Assembly (NCBI RefSeq): GCF_013141825.1
Contig: NZ_RZNH01000011.1
Coordinates: forward strand, 62,351-126,350
DNA: 64,000 bases
Direction of reading: 5' to 3'
DNA from: Marinifilum caeruleilacunae
GTDB lineage: Bacteria; Bacteroidota; Bacteroidia; Bacteroidales; Marinifilaceae
Shown: positions 55,002 to 64,000 of the stretch, in pieces
Numbering within the stretch: the stretch's first letter is position 1
How the letters are laid out: each line of letters opens with the position of its first letter
Notes under the pieces: generated by a model
Database searches by the model: none
Told to the model about the DNA's origin: nothing
What the model saw: only the letters and a program-made list of their open reading frames with translations
Translations under genes and position numbers: made by a program

Positions 55002-56891
55002 TCAATAATTAAATCCGATCAAATTAAAATACGCTAACCAAGGAATAAAAAACAGAGCTGTAGCAATAATTAGTGATTGATAAACCAAATCAAAAGTTCC
55101 AAGCTCTTTAAAACGAATTGCTTTAATTATTAAATAGATTGTAAAAAACACCAAAGGAATAATGATAAATGGCAACACTAAGGCAATTTTAATGAGCATA
55201 GGTACGCCATAGAAAAATTCCATTGGGTCAGTTGTTAGTAATGCAAAAGCAAGTATAAACACGAAAACGATGATTAATGACGCAATGCAAAAATTGGTTT
55301 TCTTAACAAGATGGTTCTTTTTGTTGCAAACAAATAGTTTAATGATTGTGCATGTAATGATGTAAATGGATAAAATAAGAACAATACTTCCAATCCAGAA
55401 TTTCAGAAATGTAGCAGGTTCATACCACCTTAATTTCTCATATGAATGGGCTTCCGCAAAAAAATAGCCTATTTCGCCTTTTGCATTTCTGCCAAATGCC
55501 TGGTGCCAACCGCGTTTCGAGTAGAATGTTAAACCGGATACAGGCAAAAATGTATCGTTCCATGGCATAACCTCTAGTGTACTGTCTTTTGCTACAATTT
55601 CAATTTCTGGAGCTAATCCAATTAAAATACCTACTTTTTCAAAAGTTGTATGTGAATTAAGAGTATACCGATAATGACCTGCAAACTTCTCCAAAGGTTC
55701 ATCTACCGAACCAATCTTAGGTTCAGTTTTAGCTTTATGCCTGTTATTTAAATCAGTGGGCATTATTCGTGTCAAAAGCTCATTAATAAATTGATCAATA
55801 AATACACGACTTTTTCCAGTTACATAATTCGATGAGTTAACTGAAATAAACAAGCCTATGTTTTTTTCAGGAAATAATGACATTTGATTTGTAAAGCCTA
55901 GATATCTACCGCTGTGTCCGAAATATTTCATACCCTTCCATTGGTATTCTGGAAAACCAAGCAGCCATCCGCATCCGGCCTTTTCATATTGCTTAAAGGG
56001 TGTATGTGTCATTTTTACGAGCGTAGTAGAATCTAAAATTTGCTTTCCATTAAACTTGCCATTATTCAAAAACATAGAAATATAGTGTCCCATGTCCGAA
56101 GCTGTTGATTGAAATGAAGCGGAAGGATAAAAAAGAGGGAAATCTGGCTTGTGAGGAATCAACTGTCCGTTCTTTTGCAAATAACTTGTAACGTAGTTCT
56201 CTTTGAGTTCAGTTTGTCTTTTAAAACCGCTAAAATTCATTTCTAGTGGCTTTAATATTTTTTGTCTGACGTATTCATCAAAAGCAAAGCCTGAGACTTC
56301 TTCAACAATAAGTCCCAATAGCGCATATCCCTGATTGGAATAGCTTGCAACCTTACCCGAAGGCCTTATTTGTGAAGGCATTTGCTTTTTCAAATATTGA
56401 GCCAGGGGAATGACCTCCTTTTCGGTTCGAACCGATGAACTTATATTGCAATAATCTATACCGGCAGTGTGAGTTAATAGTTGTCTTACGGTAATCGGAG
56501 AGTCGAATTTATAGCTAATTTGAAATGATGTGAGATAAGTGTTCACATCCCGATCGAGTTCTAACTTTCCATTCTCAACTAATTGCATAATTGCTGTAGC
56601 CACAAAAGTTTTTGAAATGGAACCGATTCCAAATATAGAGGAGCTGCTATTTACAGGCTTATTGGATCTGATATCTGTAACTCCATATCCGTTCATGTGA
56701 AGAATAGAATCTCCTTGCATCAAAACAAAGGTAGCCCCGGCAATATTAAAGCTATTTAGACCTTCTGTAAATTGAGAATCGATCCAGGCATTTAAATTGC
56801 TTGTTTTGTTATCAGGATTTTGGGCACAGACTTTATTTTCTAATGAGAAAAAAGAACATAAAATTGAAAATACAATAAGTAATTGTTTCAT
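55002..56891 (-). CDS. Serine hydrolase (beta-lactamase family) with C-terminal membrane domain
   Basis: 629 residues, signal peptide ending KVCAQ. The beta-lactamase/PBP domain (~30-375) has SxxK in GIGSISKTFVATAI, YSN in YSNQGYALLG and HSGRYLG. A ~100-residue beta region follows, then four TM helices (~500-629: FLKFWIGSIVLILSIYIITCTI onward). This architecture is seen in Bacteroidota proteins near LytTR regulators. It may process a peptide or cell-wall fragment. First gene after tRNA-Arg, convergent with it. Confidence 0.85.
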   Translation of the reverse strand: MKQLLIVFSILCSFFSLENKVCAQNPDNKTSNLNAWIDSQFTEGLNSFNIAGATFVLMQGDSILHMNGYGVTDIRSNKPVNSSSSIFGIGSISKTFVATAIMQLVENGKLELDRDVNTYLTSFQISYKFDSPITVRQLLTHTAGIDYCNISSSVRTEKEVIPLAQYLKKQMPSQIRPSGKVASYSNQGYALLGLIVEEVSGFAFDEYVRQKILKPLEMNFSGFKRQTELKENYVTSYLQKNGQLIPHKPDFPLFYPSASFQSTASDMGHYISMFLNNGKFNGKQILDSTTLVKMTHTPFKQYEKAGCGWLLGFPEYQWKGMKYFGHSGRYLGFTNQMSLFPEKNIGLFISVNSSNYVTGKSRVFIDQFINELLTRIMPTDLNNRHKAKTEPKIGSVDEPLEKFAGHYRYTLNSHTTFEKVGILIGLAPEIEIVAKDSTLEVMPWNDTFLPVSGLTFYSKRGWHQAFGRNAKGEIGYFFAEAHSYEKLRWYEPATFLKFWIGSIVLILSIYIITCTIIKLFVCNKKNHLVKKTNFCIASLIIVFVFILAFALLTTDPMEFFYGVPMLIKIALVLPFIIIPLVFFTIYLIIKAIRFKELGTFDLVYQSLIIATALFFIPWLAYFNLIGFNY

Positions 56892-56985
56892 AAGATTTGA
56901 TTTAAATATTAAATTTTGGGGTGTATGATGCCAGTCGGTTAGTAAACCGAGAATACATATTGATAGAATAAAACTAATACGGAGT

Positions 56986-57393
56986 TTAAGCGGAATACTG
57001 GTTTCCGAGCTTCTTCTTATTTAATTTTAATGCGATAAAGACTAAAAAAATTGAGAGCAGATAAATAAGAATTCCATAAATGCTAACAATCATTGTGGTT
57101 TTTAAGGCTGCAAATATTACCACTGGCTCATAATTAAGAGATTTGACAGCTCCTTCTTTCGCAGCCCTAAAGCATCCAAAAAATCCAAACATCTGACCCA
57201 AAATTCCAGTAACAAGGGCAAATAATCCTATTGATTTTCCATATCCAAGTTTTCGTAAAAAAACTGCTTTATCGATTTGTTGAGAACTGTATACAAGAAT
57301 AATGTGATAAATAATCCAGGCAAGTGTAATTATTAACAAAAGCGTAAGTACCCACATGAAAAAAGGTCCTCCAATAATAAATAAATCTTTCAT
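56986..57393 (-). CDS. Small MotA/TolQ/ExbB-like membrane protein
   Basis: 135 residues, three TM helices: FFMWVLTLLLIITLAWIIYH, GLFALVTGILGQMFGFFGCF and ALKTTMIVSIYGILIYLLSIFLVFIAL. The ALKTTM...YG segment and GxLGQMFG resemble the TolQ/ExbB channel core, but the protein lacks most of the cytoplasmic loop. No ExbD/TolR partner is adjacent, so proton-channel activity is doubtful. It lies 95 bp behind (upstream of) the serine hydrolase on the same strand. Confidence 0.7.
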   Translation of the reverse strand: MKDLFIIGGPFFMWVLTLLLIITLAWIIYHIILVYSSQQIDKAVFLRKLGYGKSIGLFALVTGILGQMFGFFGCFRAAKEGAVKSLNYEPVVIFAALKTTMIVSIYGILIYLLSIFLVFIALKLNKKKLGNQYSA

Positions 57394-57544
57394 AATTAAT
57401 TAATTTTGTACTTAATGCTTCTGCCAAATTATAAGAGATAAGAAGATTCACAAAGGTCGAATCCGCATCTTATCCGGTTGTTGGTCCACTCTAAATGGTA
57501 ATAAAGAGAACTTTGCCGAAATTAGCTCGAAAAAAATAAATATA

Positions 57545-58315
57545 ATGAATATAAAACCGAAAAATCTCCATTTACATATTGCCTATTGGATTTTTACTCT
57601 ACTCGTTTTAATCCGGGCATTTGGGTTTTCATGGGAAGATAAAACCCATGCATTTTACTTCGTAGGAACGATTTTTCTGATTGTAATAGGAACATCATAT
57701 TTTTTCAATTATGTGCTAGTACGGAAATTTTACTATACAAAAAGATATGGAAGATTTACATTTTATACCTTTTGTATGGCTATCATTTCGTTTTACCTTG
57801 AAATGCTGGTTTTACTATTTTTTTATATCTATCTGGTAGACTTGAATTATTTTGGTTTAGATCCTGATGCAGCTCAACCATTACTTCTGGCAGTTGTATT
57901 GTATTTTTTGATACTTGTAGGTAGCTTTTTATTGATGATTACCCAAATCAAAGAAAATCAGCAAGTAATTCAACAACTGGTGGATGAAAAAGAGAAGATG
58001 AAAAATTCTTTTCTTGAAATCATGTCGAATCGGAAAATGGCCAAAATACCTTATGATAATATTGTTTACATTGAAAGCTTATCGAATTACATTAAGGTAA
58101 TTACATTAGACAATGAAATTATAAGCAAAGAGAAAATAAGTAAACTATATGAGAGATTACCTGATGGTTTTTTAAGAATTCATCGTTCATTTATTATCAA
58201 TACAGAAAGAATTAAAGAGCGCTCACTCGATGAGGTTTTGGTTGAGGATGTTAGGCTAAATATTGGAAGGACTTACAGAAAAGAAGTAAAAGAGTTGCTT
58301 AATCAGAGAGCTTAA
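57545..58315 (+). CDS. Membrane-anchored LytTR transcriptional regulator
   Basis: 256 residues: four N-terminal TM helices (~10-135), a coiled linker (QIKENQQVIQQLVDEKEKMKNSF), and a LytTR DNA-binding domain (~165-256: IPYDNIVYIESLSNYIKVIT, FLRIHRSFIINTERI, IGRTYRKEVKELL). There is no receiver or kinase domain, so it is a one-component regulator sensing at the membrane. It is divergent from the ExbB-like/hydrolase pair, which it probably controls. Confidence 0.9.
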   Translation: MNIKPKNLHLHIAYWIFTLLVLIRAFGFSWEDKTHAFYFVGTIFLIVIGTSYFFNYVLVRKFYYTKRYGRFTFYTFCMAIISFYLEMLVLLFFYIYLVDLNYFGLDPDAAQPLLLAVVLYFLILVGSFLLMITQIKENQQVIQQLVDEKEKMKNSFLEIMSNRKMAKIPYDNIVYIESLSNYIKVITLDNEIISKEKISKLYERLPDGFLRIHRSFIINTERIKERSLDEVLVEDVRLNIGRTYRKEVKELLNQRA

Positions 58316-58421
58316 AATTATTATTTATAAATATCATAGCCGATCCCTGCTCTATAGTTTTGCGCTCGGTGAAATACATGTGTTTTGTATAATTAGTAAG
58401 TTAACTTCCTTAAGTTCAACG
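58316..58421. other. Spacer before first repeat unit
   Basis: AT-rich, no gene or structure seen. Confidence 0.3.
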
Positions 58422-58518
58422 GGGAGTAAATTAGGGTAAATCAACAAAAGTAAATGTTTGTAAATCGCATTAAAACAGCTGGTTACAAATAAAAGTCAAG
58501 GTTCTGGTGGGGTCACAA
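58422..58518 (+). repeat. 97-bp repeat unit, copy 1, ending in a degenerate tRNA-Arg 3' end
   Basis: Begins GGGAGTAAATTAGGG and ends with a 23-bp block (58496-58518, core GGTTCTGGTGGGGTCACAA). It matches copy 2 (59624-59720) without gaps: the first 15 and last 23 bp are identical and the 59-bp middle is ~63% identical by eye. The tail corresponds to the T arm and acceptor end of tRNA-Arg(CCT) with ~6 nt of the T loop missing, and the similarity to the tRNA locus continues into the following terminator. Interpreted as a remnant attachment site; the interpretation is inference. Confidence 0.75.
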
Positions 58519-58525
58519 GTAATTG

Positions 58526-58551
58526 AAGCTGATAGAGTTATCAGCTTTTTT
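58526..58551 (+). terminator. Terminator following repeat copy 1
   Basis: Nine-bp stem (58526-58534 with 58539-58547), 4-nt loop, T run. Its stem sequence (AAGCTGAT/ATCAGCTT) resembles the tRNA-Arg terminator. Confidence 0.75.
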
Positions 58552-58809
58552 ATGGAGTCCTGATGTTACTTAACACACTCGATTAAAAATTTCATCCTTT
58601 CAATATGATTATTTAGAATGCCCATTAGGCTTGTTTTATCCGCTTTGCGGTCTAAAATCTATCCATAAAGTCAATTTGTTGATAAATACTTGAAGCCTTT
58701 TAAAAAAGGCTAAAAGGTGCTTCTATGCTATTCGGTTAACCATTTATTTTGCATTCGTAGTTCTTTTGTTGTTAATTTCTATATTTATAACTTGAAGATC
58801 CTAAATATT
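58552..58809. other. Upstream region of the orphan lipoprotein gene
   Basis: AT-rich, with a short ACTTGAAG... repeat-like stretch around 58690-58720; no gene, promoter match or RNA recognised. Confidence 0.25.
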
Positions 58810-59556
58810 ATGAATTTATTCATTCCAATTGTAATGATGAGATTTTATGTTTTAATAATGATAACACTCACAATTTTTCTTACCTCATGTTTAAAAGTGA
58901 AGAAGAATAATTTTACGAGTGAAATTCAACAAGAAACCGAAGGGGAAGCTCCTTCTATGGCATCTTCTCCAACTAAAGAAGTTTATTACAGGACGAAAAA
59001 TGGAATTACAGATACTATCGTTGTCGATTCTACATTAGTTAAAGCTTTTATAGTTGATATGGATACAATAGACAATAAAATCTACATAGCGTATTCAAAA
59101 TCAGAAGTAAAATATTCCGTTAAAGCAGATTCAAGTATTTTTTATATTGCACACTTTTTTAATTCTGTGGATTTAAATAGTGAACCTTTAAAAAAGTATC
59201 ACCTTTTCAAGCATGGTAAGATTAAACCTAATGAACAAGAACTAAAAATAACGGATTTTGGTTGGTATGAAGACCATATTGAAATAAAACAAATAAAGAA
59301 AATACCTTTTGCTGACTCTATTACTTATGTAAAAACAAGATCTTTTCATGATGATGGCTTATACGTACATACCTTGATAGAGGATTCAAGTGATGGATTT
59401 CTTAAATTATTTGAAATTCAATGTTCTAATAAATCGATCGACTTCAAAGTTGTTAGTGATTCCATAATTCAAGTTCACTTTTATATTTACAACGATCAAA
59501 TTAGTTTGAAAGATAGCCTTAGCTATAATTTAGGATCAAGAAAGAGATTAAATTAA
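58810..59556 (+). CDS. Hypothetical lipoprotein
   Basis: 248 residues; not recognised. A lipoprotein signal ends LTIFLTSC, and starts at 58834 or 58837 would shorten the n-region to the usual length. The rest is soluble, beta-rich and acidic-to-mixed (TDTIVVDSTLVKAFIVDMDTIDNK, SYNLGSRKRLN at the end) and may form a beta-sandwich. It lies between the two 97-bp repeat units, is more AT-rich than the flanking chromosome and has no neighbour on its transcript, consistent with acquired DNA. Confidence 0.65.
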   Translation: MNLFIPIVMMRFYVLIMITLTIFLTSCLKVKKNNFTSEIQQETEGEAPSMASSPTKEVYYRTKNGITDTIVVDSTLVKAFIVDMDTIDNKIYIAYSKSEVKYSVKADSSIFYIAHFFNSVDLNSEPLKKYHLFKHGKIKPNEQELKITDFGWYEDHIEIKQIKKIPFADSITYVKTRSFHDDGLYVHTLIEDSSDGFLKLFEIQCSNKSIDFKVVSDSIIQVHFYIYNDQISLKDSLSYNLGSRKRLN

Positions 59557-59623
59557 GTATAAAAATGCCTTATATATTGGGACTCTTATTTATGGTCAGT
59601 TTGTAATATCCTAAAAACTAGCA

Positions 59624-59720
59624 GGGAGTAAATTAGGGGATGTTCTCAAAAATATAAGCCTGTAAAATGCATAAACACAGGTGTATATAAGGAAAAATCA
59701 AGGTTCTGGTGGGGTCACAA
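59624..59720 (+). repeat. 97-bp repeat unit, copy 2, ending in a degenerate tRNA-Arg 3' end
   Basis: Same 15-bp head and 23-bp tail as copy 1, with the same 74-bp distance from head to tail start. The 15-bp head contains GGGAGT and runs into GGGGAT, a direct-repeat look typical of recombinase arm sites. The tail carries the same 6-nt T-loop deletion relative to tRNA-Arg. Confidence 0.75.
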
Positions 59721-59731
59721 AATATTATAAG

Positions 59732-59764
59732 CTCCGAATCCAAAAAGGATTACGGAGTTTTTTT
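59732..59764 (+). terminator. Terminator following repeat copy 2
   Basis: Ten-bp stem with a one-base bulge (59732-59741 with 59747-59757), AAAAA loop, seven Ts. The style is that of tRNA terminators. Confidence 0.8.
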
Positions 59765-59944
59765 GCTTAAGTGAAACAAGTTATATACGCCTACCTCTTG
59801 CTATTCCAGATACTAAAGAACCTAAATAAATCAGAAAGCATATTTCATGAAGCACACAAGCAAAAGAGCTGTTTTTTAATGCTTAGATAGAATTGATTAC
59901 AAGAATTTATTGCTTAATGGTGAGGTTTATTTTATTTCAATTAG
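59765..59944. other. Spacer upstream of the Fur-family regulator
   Basis: AT-rich; no gene seen. Confidence 0.3.
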
Positions 59945-59982
59945 TATATTTGCAACAATGTTGCATATGAATCGCTGTTGCA
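59945..59982 (+). promoter_or_regulatory. Metalloregulator operator overlapping the -7 promoter element
   Basis: TATATTTG (59945-59952) matches the Bacteroidota -7 element. It overlaps a perfect 7-1-7 palindrome TGCAACAATGTTGCA (59951-59965), the geometry used by Fur/Zur proteins. A further half site TGTTGCA (59976-59982) ends 3 bp before the regulator's start codon. Autorepression of the operon by its first gene is the likely function. Confidence 0.7.
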
Positions 59983-59985
59983 AAA

Positions 59986-60387
59986 ATGAAACAAATTTCT
60001 AAAATATTACAAGAAAGAGATTTGGTACGTACTTCATGTCGTGAAGAAATTATTGAGGCTATTGTTGAGTCGCCAACTCCTTTGTCGGAAGAGGAAATAA
60101 AAACTGTTATTTCCGGCAATTTCGACAGGACAACTTTGTACCGTACTTTTAAAACTCTTCTTGAAAAGGAGGTCATTCACAAAATTGTAATTGACAAAAC
60201 CCTTGTAAAATATGCAATTACTGAGAAGCTGAACCGAAGCAAGCAACATGCCCATTTTTATTGCCTGAAATGTAGCGAGGTGTATTGCATTCCTGAGGTA
60301 AATTGGGATTATAAAGGTTTGCCTGATAATTATAAACCTAAGCAATCCGAGCTTTTAATAAAAGGATATTGTTCAAATTGTAATTAA
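59986..60387 (+). CDS. Fur-family metalloregulator, probably Zur
   Basis: 133 residues. N-terminal winged helix (RTSCREEIIEAIVESPTPLSEEEIKTVI, DRTTLYRTFKTLLEKEVIHKI) and a short dimerisation/metal domain with HAHFYCLKCSEVYC and a terminal CSNC, giving two CxxC pairs for the structural zinc. The truncated C-terminus is usual for Bacteroidota Zur-like proteins. Context (COG0523 GTPases next to it) favours zinc over iron or peroxide sensing. It is the first gene of the run, 10 bp before the GTPase gene. Confidence 0.85.
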   Translation: MKQISKILQERDLVRTSCREEIIEAIVESPTPLSEEEIKTVISGNFDRTTLYRTFKTLLEKEVIHKIVIDKTLVKYAITEKLNRSKQHAHFYCLKCSEVYCIPEVNWDYKGLPDNYKPKQSELLIKGYCSNCN

Positions 60388-60397
60388 TCAAAAAAAT

Positions 60398-61456
60398 ATG
60401 GATAGTAGAATCCCAGTAACAATTATAACAGGATTTTTAGGGGCTGGAAAAACAACTTTACTCAATCAATTGATAAAAGACCATCCTCAAAAAAAGTTTG
60501 CCATTATTGAGAATGAGTTTGGTGAAATTGGAATTGATGGTGGTTTAATAGTAGGTACAGACGAGAACATTTTCGAACTCTCCAATGGCTGTATCTGCTG
60601 TTCATTAAGCGAAGGTTTTTATGAAACGATTACAAAGTTATTGGACAGTCCTCATCCGTTTAATCACCTACTGATTGAAACCACAGGAATAGCCGATCCG
60701 GACTCTATTATTAAGGCCTTTCTTTCAATGGAAGTAATTCAGATGAACTTTAGACTCGATAGCGTTATTTGTCTAGCTGATTGTGCCAATATGGAAGATC
60801 TGATCGATGAGCAGCCTGAAGTTAGAAAACAATTGGCATTGGCAGATGTGGTGCTTTTAAATAAAGCAGACACGATTCAAGAGAACTATTTGAAAAAATT
60901 ACAAGCTGTGATAATTGGGATCAATTCCACTGCAACAATTTATCCTGTAGAATTCGCAAATCTGAGTGGTGTTGATTTGCTTGATTTAAAAGCATTCTCG
61001 GCTCGAACCATTGAGAAATCAAGCATGTCGTTTCAAAACTTATCGATAGTAGGTGATGCGATTGATCCTCAGCCTTCATTATTAAGTAAGCCAATTGTTC
61101 ATTCAACCAAACACCATCATGAACATCAGCACGATATAAAATCTTTTGGGTTTAAGATTCCAGGGAGTTTTGATATGATGAAATTTGATATATGGATGGA
61201 GAGTTTTCTCTACTTTAATCAAGATACCGTATTCAGAGTAAAAGGAATACTTAGCTTTGATAATGTTCCGGAGAAAGGAATTTTTCAGGCGGTTAGGAGC
61301 AACTACATGATTGAAGCCGGAGAGAAATGGGGAACAGAAGCCCGTTTTAGCATCTTAATTTTTATTGGAAAAGAACTTAACCAGAAAATGCTGGATGAAA
61401 ACCTCTGCCAACTGCTTGCAAAACCTGTTGAAGCGATCAAATCGGAAGCTGGATAA
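60398..61456 (+). CDS. COG0523 (CobW/YciC) GTPase with His-rich loop
   Basis: 352 residues, cytoplasmic. Walker A GFLGAGKT (12-19), the metal-binding CxCC motif in NGCICCSL (Cys65, 67, 68), Walker-B-like ETTGIADP and NKAD (155-158). A His-rich stretch (HSTKHHHEHQHD, ~235-246) separates the G domain from the C-terminal CobW_C domain (FRVKGILSF onward). COG0523 proteins deliver zinc or other metals to client enzymes at the cost of GTP. The His loop could store or hand over metal. Confidence 0.9.
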   Translation: MDSRIPVTIITGFLGAGKTTLLNQLIKDHPQKKFAIIENEFGEIGIDGGLIVGTDENIFELSNGCICCSLSEGFYETITKLLDSPHPFNHLLIETTGIADPDSIIKAFLSMEVIQMNFRLDSVICLADCANMEDLIDEQPEVRKQLALADVVLLNKADTIQENYLKKLQAVIIGINSTATIYPVEFANLSGVDLLDLKAFSARTIEKSSMSFQNLSIVGDAIDPQPSLLSKPIVHSTKHHHEHQHDIKSFGFKIPGSFDMMKFDIWMESFLYFNQDTVFRVKGILSFDNVPEKGIFQAVRSNYMIEAGEKWGTEARFSILIFIGKELNQKMLDENLCQLLAKPVEAIKSEAG

Positions 61457-61522
61457 TAAATCAATTTTATTGACTTTAAATGTACAATCATTCCAGACCT
61501 TATACTTAAAAATAAGAAATCA

Positions 61523-61909
61523 ATGAAAATCTCAGCAGATAATATTGGTATGGCAAGCACAACTTTATGTCTTGTACATTGTATTTTAACTCCATTTATT
61601 TTTATTGCCCAGGCTTGTGCTGCAAGCTGCTGCGCTGAGAGCCCTGTTTGGTGGCGAGTTATAGACTTCCTTTTTCTTGTTATCTCCTTTATTGCCGTTT
61701 ATTTTGCAGCCAAAAACAGCTCAAAGCGATGGGTAAAGATAGCACTCTATGTTCTTTTTGCTTTTCTAAGCTTTTTCATTATTAATGAACATGCTGGCAG
61801 TTTACAATTAAATAGAATTTTCTTGTATACACCTGCATTTTTATTATTTGCCTTGCATTTGTACAACAAAAAGTATTGCCAATGCCAGGATGAATGTTAT
61901 ACTGTCTAA
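61523..61909 (+). CDS. MerC-domain membrane protein
   Basis: 128 residues, four TM helices. The MerC signature lies in TM1 ([18 protein letters not shown], with Cys and His), plus AASCCAESP between helices and a Cys-rich tail CQCQDEC. MerC was named from mercury uptake, but no other mer gene is here; within a COG0523 operon a role in moving zinc or a similar metal is more likely. It lies 10 bp before the second GTPase. Confidence 0.85.
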
Positions 61910-61919
61910 AAAACAAAAT

Positions 61920-63122
61920 ATGATGACTAAAAAGTTACCAGTTACAGTTTTAAGCGGTTTTTTGGGAGCTGGCAAAACAACCTTGCTTAACCACATTTTG
62001 CATAACAAAGAAAATCTTCGTGCTGCTGTTATTGTCAACGATATGAGCGAGGTAAACATAGATGCACAATTGGTTGAAAATGAAAATGTTCTCTCGCGTA
62101 CTGATGAGAAACTTGTTGAAATGAGCAACGGTTGCATTTGCTGTACCTTGCGTGAAGACCTTGTAAAAGAAGTCGAAAAACTGGCACAGCAGAATCGCTT
62201 CGATTATCTATTTATAGAAAGTACGGGTATTAGCGAACCCATACCTGTGGCACAAACATTTACATATGCTTTTGAAGAATCAGGAATTGACCTTACGAAA
62301 TGGGCAAGGCTTGATACCATGGTAACCGTTGTGGATGCTTTCAATTTTGAAAAAGATTTTGATAGCTTAGATACCATAGCAAACCGGGGCATGAATGATG
62401 ATGATCCTGAAGATCAGCGTACAATTGTAAACTTATTGACTGACCAGATTGAATTTGCCAATGTGATTATCATTAACAAAGCCGACTTGATTAGTGAGGA
62501 AAGACTGGTGCAATTAAAAGCAATCATTCATAAATTGAATCCAGTAGCCAAAATATTGGAATCAAGTTTTGCAAAAATTAACCTGAAAGAGATTGTAAAT
62601 ACTGAACTATTCAATTTTGAAGAAGCTTCTTCGGCTGCAGGTTGGATTAAAGAACTTGAGGGAGAACATACCCCAGAAACAGAGGAGTATGACATTTCTT
62701 CCTTTATTTTCCGAGATAAACGGCCTTTTCATCCTGAAAGGTTTTGGCGTTATGTGAATTTCGAATGGGATGGAGCAATTATCCGAAGTAAAGGACTGTT
62801 CTGGATTGCCTCACGACCTAAAGAGGCTATAAACTGGAGTCAGGCCGGAGGATCATTACGAGCTGATAAAGCAGGTGTTTGGTGGGCTTCCCTTGATATA
62901 ATTGAACGGAATCAACATCCAGCGTTTCAGCAAAACGAAGAATACATTATGAGCAAATGGGACCAACGTTTTGGCGACAGGCAAAACGAACTTGTTATTA
63001 TAGGACAGGATATGGATGAAGAAGCAATAAAACAGGAATTGCAAGCTTGTTTATGCACCGAAGCAGAAATTAGAACTATGGAATTGAATGCAGATAATTT
63101 TGTGGATGAATGGCCAGTTTAA
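61920..63122 (+). CDS. COG0523 GTPase, ZigA-type zinc metallochaperone
   Basis: 400 residues from the ATG at 61920, just after MerC; the frame is open further upstream but that part overlaps merC and is not conserved. Walker [10 protein letters not shown], CxCC in [16 protein letters not shown] (Cys72, 74, 75), ESTGISEP and NKAD. Length and the C-terminal domain ([40 protein letters not shown]) match ZigA-type proteins, a different subgroup from the 352-residue protein upstream. Two subgroups in one operon suggests different clients. Confidence 0.92.
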
Positions 63123-63194
63123 ATATTTTTAACAATGAATTGTAATTTAAGCAGAACCAAAAACGATAATTTTAAAATTTGTAATTGAATAAAT

Positions 63195-63830
63195 ATGGCC
63201 CTTATAAAAACGGAAGCTCTTTCGTATCAATATCCCGGAGGAAAGATTTTAAATTTCCCCGCTTTGCAAATTGGAATAAATGAATCATGGCTGCTTACAG
63301 GAAACTCAGGAAGTGGAAAAACTACCTTGCTTCATTTAATTTCAGGCATTTTAATGCCATCTAGCGGAACATTGCAAATTGCCAATACATTGCTAAATAA
63401 TTTAAGACCAGCAGAGATTGATGTCTACCGAGCCAAAAACATTGGCATGGTTTTTCAAAAAAGCTATTTTATTGATGCCTTAAGCATGCATAAGAATTTG
63501 TTGTACTTCGCTGAATTATCGGGAAAAAAGGCAGATATAGAATTTGTGAATAAACTTTTGAACGATTTAGGAATAGCAAATTTAGCACGCAAGAAACCTA
63601 CAACACTAAGTAGTGGAGAACTTCAGCGTTTTTCAATTGCAAGAGCCCTTATAAATAAACCTGGAATTATTTTAGCCGATGAACCTACGTCTAGCCTAGA
63701 TGACGATAATTGTAAGCGTTTTATCGAGTTAATTATTGGTATTTGCAAAAGTTACGGTGTAACTCTTGTAGTAGCAACTCATGATGCACGATTGAAAAAA
63801 GAATTTGTAAATACAATCCAACTAAATTAA
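63195..63830 (+). CDS. ABC transporter ATP-binding protein (LolD/MacB type)
   Basis: 211 residues. Walker A GNSGSGKTT (36-44), Q loop MVFQKSYF, signature LSSGELQ (138-143), Walker B ILADEPTSSLD (159-169), H loop VVATHD. It pairs with the FtsX-like permease starting 2 bp after its stop. LolD/MacB-type transporters work by mechanotransmission on periplasmic partners rather than by import. The Zur-regulated PA4063-PA4066 genes of Pseudomonas aeruginosa include a transporter of this type, which supports a zinc link. Confidence 0.9.
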   Translation: MALIKTEALSYQYPGGKILNFPALQIGINESWLLTGNSGSGKTTLLHLISGILMPSSGTLQIANTLLNNLRPAEIDVYRAKNIGMVFQKSYFIDALSMHKNLLYFAELSGKKADIEFVNKLLNDLGIANLARKKPTTLSSGELQRFSIARALINKPGIILADEPTSSLDDDNCKRFIELIIGICKSYGVTLVVATHDARLKKEFVNTIQLN

Positions 63831-63832
63831 GT

Positions 63833-64000
63833 ATGCTGACAATAGTAAAAATAGCAGTTGCAAAATTGCTTCATAAACCATACAATAGTGCGTTAAGTGT
63901 ACTTTTATTTGCAATAGGTGTAGCACTTATTTCATTGATAATAAAAACAGAAACCTTGCTGAATAATCAATACAAAAACAATTTAGCAGGAATCGATTTA
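63833..64000 (+). CDS. FtsX-like ABC permease (3' part beyond window)
   Basis: The first 56 codons are visible: MLTIVKIAVAKLLHKPYN, a TM helix (SVLLFAIGVALISLII) and the start of a periplasmic domain (LLNNQYKNNLAGIDL). This is the N-terminal pattern of MacB/FtsX-type permeases. It is the partner of the ATPase just upstream and is cut by the window edge. Confidence 0.82.
   Translation, partial: MLTIVKIAVAKLLHKPYNSALSVLLFAIGVALISLIIKTETLLNNQYKNNLAGIDL

Follow-up and report, generated by a model that had tools for sequence, protein, structure and literature searches.

A putative Zur-controlled zinc-starvation operon with a MerC-family membrane protein in Marinifilum caeruleilacunae and its counterparts in other Bacteroidota

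We describe a run of eight genes that begins near the right end of a 64,000-nucleotide stretch of the Marinifilum caeruleilacunae genome (contig NZ_RZNH01000011.1, i.e. C3:62351-126350 in the 5.27-Mb draft genome, hereafter the window) and continues into the 5.1 kb by which the contig reaches past the window end. The run encodes a Fur-family regulator, two COG0523 GTPases, a MerC-family membrane protein, an ABC ATPase with an FtsX-type permease, a small secreted protein and a second porphobilinogen synthase, HemB2 (Table 1). It is probably a Zur-controlled zinc-starvation operon that would be derepressed in zinc shortage, whereupon MerC and the Zrg-type transporter would move metal, the COG0523 proteins would deliver it and HemB2 would spare it. 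The zinc (Zur) assignment of the regulon is well supported by sequence comparison, since the box in front of the operon recurs by MerC genes whose partners include ZigA, FolE, HisI, ZIP, TonB receptors and the Zrg-type transporter.

Table 1. Features of the operon and of its upstream region (window positions; positions past the window end are also given in locus L007)
Feature	Coordinates	Strand	Remarks
Putative -7 promoter element, TATATTTG	59945-59952	+	Overlapped by operator
Putative Zur-type operator, TGCAACAATGTTGCA	59951-59965		Perfect 15-bp palindrome
Degenerate second half-site region	59967-59987		Inverted-repeat pair I2; TGTTGCA at 59976-59982
Zur-like Fur-family regulator, 133 aa	59986-60387	+	PF01475, 38 bits (cut-off 23.1)
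CobW/COG0523 GTPase, 352 aa	60398-61456	+	PF02492 and PF07683; CxCC, HHHEHQHD
MerC-family membrane protein, 128 aa	61523-61909	+	PF03203, 67.1 bits (cut-off 27.6)
Second COG0523 GTPase, ZigA-like, 399 aa	61923-63122	+	NF038288, 571 bits (cut-off 600)
LolD/FtsE-type ABC ATPase, 211 aa	63195-63830	+	Profile matches; ZrgC/PA4064-like by context
FtsX/MacB-type permease, 484 aa	63833 to 65287 (L007:7638)	+	Extends past window end
Secreted protein weakly like DUF3299/ZrgE, 156 aa	65290-65760 (L007:7641-8111)	same direction	CFFC
HemB2	65837-66814 (L007:8188-9165)	same direction	Without zinc cysteines

The gene run and its operator

A preliminary description, made from the letters of the window, had listed six co-directional genes with gaps of 2-72 bp behind one palindrome overlapping a -7 element, and all of these lie where it had placed them, the successive gaps being 10, 66, 13, 72 and 2 bp. 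It had also pointed past 64 kb for the rest of the permease and a periplasmic partner; there the complete permease, the secreted DUF3299-like protein and a HemB gene were found. The gap between the first two of these is 2 bp and that before HemB2 is 76 bp, after which a long open reading frame (ORF) follows on the opposite strand.

The promoter element fits the Bacteroidota -7 pattern, TAnnTTTG, and the operator is unlike the E. coli-type Zur box. A scan for sigma-70 promoters and terminators gave matches at chance level only, and Rfam models gave nothing at the gathering threshold over positions 56000-64000. The sequence TGCAACANTGTTGCA has a single exact copy in the 5.27-Mb genome, about 0.02 exact copies being expected from the base composition of the window. 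Only two palindromes with one mismatch are present genome-wide; they stand in tandem (C157:4560 and 4588) directly before a second Fur-family gene, the product of which is 47% identical to the operon regulator. This second gene opens an operon with the order Fur-family gene, His/Cys-rich small protein, TonB receptor and two His-rich DUF4625 lipoproteins.

Two 117-nt copies (58402-58518 and 59604-59720, 74% alike) flank an ORF (58717-59556) upstream of the operon. They share the identical 22-mer CAAGGTTCTGGTGGGGTCACAA, the inner 20-mer of which is found nowhere else in the genome within two mismatches; the copies have no Rfam match and their folding is not notable.

Recurrence of the box beside MerC genes

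The neighbourhood of MerC was compared at 72 loci. Thirty-two of them, the named ones, were chosen for their likeness to the MerC of the window and hence are not an even sample; the remaining 40 came from Pfam matches in genomes of the order and class (besides the genome of the window the class holds 56 MerC carriers, of which 38 genomes were examined in 39 places; one genome from the order of the window was added). The named loci nearest by MerC likeness are metagenome-assembled genomes (MAGs) of Bacteroidales/Prolixibacteraceae with 73-81% identity. The set splits into 62 short-MerC loci and 10 loci of a 202-aa PF03203 family that the short-MerC profile does not match.

We counted the box, TGCAAC-N3-GTTGCA, in an interval that starts 260 bp ahead of MerC, or of the gene that opens its run, and ends 45 bp into that gene; ORF starts were mechanical, and box distances to some genes are inexact. 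The box was found in 27 of the 62 short-MerC loci without mismatch, in 43 with at most one and in 47 with at most two mismatches. The corresponding counts for the 202-aa family are 0/10, 0/10 and 1/10. In the same 62 loci the background among ORFs of at least 150 aa, box targets included, is 29/805 at one mismatch, and the reversed pattern gives 0/805. A stricter pattern with up to two mismatches has 71 matches against one for its reverse in the 72 loci (1.26 Mb). The box is preceded by TANNTT in 33 of 166 readings and by ATNNAA in 16 of 166, every palindrome of the 62 loci being read from both sides, i.e. there is a weak enrichment.

The MerC placement therefore recurs across Bacteroidota and is not a local oddity, as the preliminary description had supposed. 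The pairing of GTPases, which it had also singled out, is likewise found elsewhere: two COG0523 genes stand in the MerC run in 6 of the 62 loci (one of them, L048, rests on a 67-aa fragment at 22 bits), and a Zur regulon with two COG0523 proteins had already been reported in the consulted part of Haas et al. 2009 (PMC2770081). The gene order itself is shared by L049 and L050, where Fur, COG0523, MerC, ZigA, ATPase, permease and DUF3299-like genes follow one another with insertions, i.e. ZIP in both and HisI, DCD, DsrE and small ORFs in L049.

Among the partners found in co-directional runs with MerC at the 62 loci, Fur is the most frequent (30, in the run or next upstream), followed by FolE (16), ZigA (13), the ABC ATPase (9), the FtsX permease and DUF3299-like proteins (7 each), PhoX (3), ZIP and the TonB receptor (2 each) and HisI (1); HemB2 is absent (0). 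The tie to the box and to these partners suggests that the short MerC proteins of boxed Bacteroidota loci really handle zinc.

Other genes behind the box

We chose 26 whole genomes, most of them MerC carriers; in these the exact box has 37 copies against two for the reversed pattern. Eleven copies belong to the window or MerC loci and 23 to 20 further regions (L147 overlaps L097), with G105, G211 and G275 left outside the reading. Eight of these 20 places are TonB-receptor operons. Others carry COG0523-MerC/Fur (L151), ZigA (L154), COG0523/HisI (L144), DUF4625 (L159), a run with a DUF3299-like gene (L155) and a small His-rich protein (L158), and two have no evident link (L152, L156). As far as sequence comparison goes, genes of zinc uptake, of metal chaperones and of zinc sparing stand behind the same palindrome as the regulator gene.

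Three genomes of different families have look-alike FAD-dependent oxidoreductases behind an exact box (L143:3638-4573, L147:2511-3509, L149:3530-4495); that of L143, the one scanned, contains a Pyr_redox_2 domain. At L145:2430-3550 an exact box precedes genes of a HupE/UreJ-type membrane protein and a DUF6702 protein, for which a nickel or cobalt link is possible.

COG0523 GTPases and HemB2

Both GTPases contain the CobW N- and C-terminal domains and the CxCC motif (CICC). The best model for the first one is not ZigA but the YjiA-type PRK11537 (192 bits, cut-off 361). The second had been called ZigA-type; it aligns over nearly the whole length of the ZigA zinc metallochaperone model, and the likeness stands, the score falling short of the curated cut-off (Table 1). 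A third COG0523 protein of the genome (L008:4934-5899) adjoins what looks by eye like a nitroreductase gene, and the nearest operator-like site, with two mismatches, is more than 10 kb off (C149:24243).

The genome has two HemB genes. The zinc-type copy, with the zinc cysteines DICNCEYTTHGHCG, sits between genes that resemble hemC and hemE by eye, and HemB2 carries DVAMDPYSSDGHDG at the corresponding place, which makes it a predicted zinc-independent porphobilinogen synthase. For Pseudomonas putida, the consulted sections of Haas et al. (PMC2770081) name a HemB2 devoid of zinc ligands as a putative target of Zur.

MerC as a candidate zinc importer

The MerC protein has a CxxHC motif in helix 1, HxxN in helix 4 and a KYCxC...C tail. 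An AF2 model of moderate confidence (mean pLDDT 75.8) places the helices at residues 5-36, 43-65, 69-91 and 99-119. Across 33 MerC sequences C16, H19, C20, T23, W43, W44, H112, N115 and C121, among others, are invariant. The model gave nothing at E < 0.001 in a fold search against the PDB, and the sequence profile found no relevant PDB match (best E 0.39). When this MerC was used as a query for plasmid-borne mercury MerC proteins, one match was returned, in Persicobacter.

Since Zur-type repression would switch the operon off when zinc suffices, import or sparing, not efflux, is to be expected of MerC, and we tentatively assign it the role of a zinc importer. With less confidence still, we speculate that the Bacteroidota short MerC proteins form a widespread, uncharacterised class of zinc importers and are not mercury proteins: four-helix proteins of about 120-165 residues, with a C-x2-H-C/H-x2-N intramembrane site and a Cys tail that would pass zinc directly to COG0523, under the Zur box TGCAAC-N3-GTTGCA. 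MerC was also considered as a replacement of ZnuB and rejected in this role, as co-occurrence shows no anticorrelation.

Two MerC proteins, 68% and 62% identical to that of the window, lie on contigs labelled as Chlamydiales/Chlamydiae MAGs (L051, L052) that have no box within two mismatches; transfer or a binning error would account for them.

The ABC transporter

The profile of the permease matches LolF, LolE and MacB chains in the PDB. A simple hydropathy scan suggests about four helices with a large domain between helix 1 and helix 2, and the stretch that joins this domain to helix 2 contains 19 His and 4 Cys in 113 aa. This loop measures 111 and 93 aa in the two nearest relatives vs 19-45 aa in the other 11 sequences of the alignment. 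The permease of a Phaeobacter plasmid operon with the order Fur-ZrgA-ATPase-permease-DUF3299 shares 29% identity with the one described here over 215 aa. There is no ZrgA gene in the operon, and PF10986 has no match in the genome, though no control genome matched it either. As the loop is long and His-rich and no ZrgA adjoins, the loop may replace ZrgA as zinc collector. The likeness of the secreted protein to DUF3299 is weak, a Pfam scan of it alone giving only sub-threshold CBM_3 and TetR_C_34 matches.

Alternative readings

It is conceivable, and in our view unlikely, that the operon is zinc-regulated, yet the cargo of MerC and of the ABC transporter is cobalt or a metal chelate, either as cobalt replacing zinc or as surplus chelated metal exported in the manner of PA4063-4066. 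In the consulted text of PMC11481552, PA4064-4065 are taken to be an exporter of MacB type that carries a complex of pyochelin and cobalt, and cobalt is said to reduce zinc demand; the profile matches of the permease fit such an exporter. In the part of PMC9820375 at hand, however, the V. cholerae zrg operon figures as a system for zinc import, required in addition to znuABC. Moreover, there is no siderophore gene among the eight genes of the run, and on chemical grounds the Cys-rich tail of MerC should prefer soft metals to Co(II).

Alternatively, MerC might not be a zinc importer, but a membrane protein that senses or scavenges metal and thereby tunes the regulator or gives protection from the soft metals Hg and Cd let in by induced zinc uptake. 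Its pairing with Fur (30/62) is more frequent than that with any counted transporter (ABC ATPase 9, FtsX 7, TonB 2, ZIP 2), the family takes its name from mercury transport and MerC has cysteine-rich ends. Yet no other mer gene occurs among the eight genes, and helices 1 and 4 hold the invariant Cys and His residues; the helix-1 cysteines are required for transport in MerT and MerE, and in MerE a nearby histidine as well, as the consulted portion of PMC5715351 has it. We consider this alternative improbable.

The regulator shares H65, H88, H90, C93, C96, C101, C129 and C132 with regulators near other MerC genes. That it senses iron, manganese or peroxide is very improbable: the NCBIfam Fur, PerR and Zur models all score it far below their cut-offs, but the canonical Fur gene is separate (C178, 95.8 bits) and lacks H65, the box precedes FolE, HisI, HemB2, ZIP, ZigA and Zrg-type genes in at least one genome each, none of the targets was noticed to be a gene for a catalase, a peroxidase or a siderophore (no systematic search was made), and hemB2 and folE2 are listed as cyanobacterial Zur targets in the sections of PMC6103462 consulted.

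Several observations weigh against the zinc-starvation reading of the operon. The E. coli-type Zur model PRK11639, which covers one lineage, gives the regulator 19.9 bits (cut-off 167). The genome has 22 further sites with two mismatches vs four for the reversed control, which contains CG pairs that may be rarer, and 13 of the 14 such sites examined sit within unrelated reading frames. Fifteen of the 62 short-MerC loci have no box within two mismatches in the start-based count. Six of them (L056, L067, L080, L105, L110, L111) have a nearby box in a scan of the whole locus and were missed because ORF starts were mechanical; nine (L051, L052, L058, L073, L076-L079, L115), several of them cut contigs, are boxless in both scans, and L073 and L076-L079 show no Fur gene either. 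HemB2 lacks a separate box, and no HemB was found in the 72 relative loci. As for MerC, it is rare in the order to which the window belongs, being present in 4 of 198 genomes, that of the window among them, with two of the four above the cut-off, and a strong ABC-3 match, of the ZnuB family, is found in 12 of 57 genomes with MerC (202-aa type included) vs 62 of 238 without (hand count). The genome encodes ZnuB and a ZIP protein, therefore MerC is not the sole candidate importer. Finally, the P. aeruginosa relative of the transporter has, as mentioned, been interpreted as an exporter.

A model of the probable zinc-starvation operon

We nevertheless favour the zinc-starvation operon, and the model may be put as follows. 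With zinc sufficient, the Fur-family protein would sit on the 15-bp box over the -7 element and keep the operon off, its own gene included; zinc would thus be the effector and repression the mode of control. In zinc shortage the regulator would release the box and the genes would be switched on, presumably as one transcript that includes HemB2, 76 bp behind. MerC would most likely act as a small inner-membrane importer, with Zn(II) passing via C16, H19, C20 and H112 to the cytosolic KYCxC...C tail. The ATPase-permease pair of the Zrg/PA4064-4065 type would probably work beside it, its His-rich loop doing the job of the absent ZrgA neighbour and the DUF3299-like protein serving as a helper; both the direction of transport and the metal are part of the model for the two systems. 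The two COG0523 GTPases would give scarce zinc to priority enzymes and HemB2, the porphobilinogen synthase copy without zinc cysteines, would spare zinc. At the outer membrane the C157 operon, under the same box, would contribute the TonB receptor and the His-rich DUF4625 lipoproteins.

The core of what had first been proposed, a zinc-starvation Zur module that combines a pair of COG0523 proteins with a transporter of the PA4063-4066 type, finds support in the box, the second operon, the targets in other genomes, HemB2 and the Phaeobacter counterpart.

PhoX in marine Flavobacteriia

PhoX is an alkaline phosphatase that uses iron and calcium instead of zinc. It lies within a boxed MerC run in three genomes, i.e. 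L065:9992-17951 (Polaribacter irgensii), L062 and L059, and in ZigA or MerC/Zrg-type clusters in L160, L161 and L162, two of which have an exact box and one of which (L161) has none within two mismatches. The identification rests on PF05787 for L065 and on likeness for L062, L059 and L160-L162. Its occurrence in boxed runs suggests that some marine Flavobacteriia scavenge phosphate in a way that spares zinc. A general link of PhoX to zinc was rejected: a PhoX match is present in 74 of 295 genomes of the class, and among the nine genomes with more than 300 bits three have PhoX in a ZigA or MerC/Zrg-type cluster and six do not. Also rejected as PhoX was the alkaline phosphatase beside a similar ATPase-permease pair in a Deinococcus and a Paracoccus plasmid, which is of the PhoA type (PF00245).

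Significance

Among the literature matches listed (open access, mostly titles and the beginnings of abstracts) none appeared to link MerC or PhoX to Zur, and no description of the placement of MerC, or of the operator, was found in the open-access literature searched. A text search of the consulted text of a 2018 review of Zur regulons (PMC6103462) gave no mention of Bacteroid* or Flavobacter*, and one of Haas et al. 2009, as far as consulted, none of Bacteroid* or mercur*. The box and the target list offer a Zur regulon that can be put directly to the test in a large bacterial group. The link between box and MerC suggests a function for a family named only after mercury, and PhoX would connect zinc shortage to phosphorus metabolism in some marine Flavobacteriia.

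Comparison with known systems

It is instructive to compare the operon with the known zinc regulons. Those of Haas et al. 2009, in the sections consulted, share with it COG0523, HemB2, HisI and GTP cyclohydrolase genes, a Zur-type box and the presence of two COG0523 proteins in one regulon; unlike there, the GTP cyclohydrolase is here of the PF01227 type and not FolE2, and MerC and the DUF4625/TonB operons are added. The MerC proteins of mercury-resistance operons belong to the same Pfam family, PF03203. In contrast to them, the MerC of the window lies outside a mer operon and is tied to Fur and a zinc-type box; it has the C-x2-H-C motif in helix 1 and the KYCxC tail.

The transporter resembles the Zrg/PA4063-4066 systems, as these are described in the consulted parts of PMC9820375, PMC8561739 and PMC11481552, in its separate ATPase and permease of about four helices, the large domain between helices 1 and 2 (for ZrgB, four helices and a periplasmic domain between the first two are given in PMC9820375), the protein weakly like DUF3299/ZrgE that follows and the zinc-type box. 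The counterpart on the alphaproteobacterial Phaeobacter plasmid has the same order of ATPase, permease and DUF3299, together with Fur and ZrgA. Unlike ZrgABCDE and PA4063-PA4066, the operon described here has no ZrgA gene, carries a His-rich segment inside the permease loop, shows a weak DUF3299 likeness and is joined to MerC and two GTPases. We regard it as a form, found in Bacteroidota, of a regulon type already known; MerC is one of its regular members, and its Zrg-type transporter has no ZrgA beside it.

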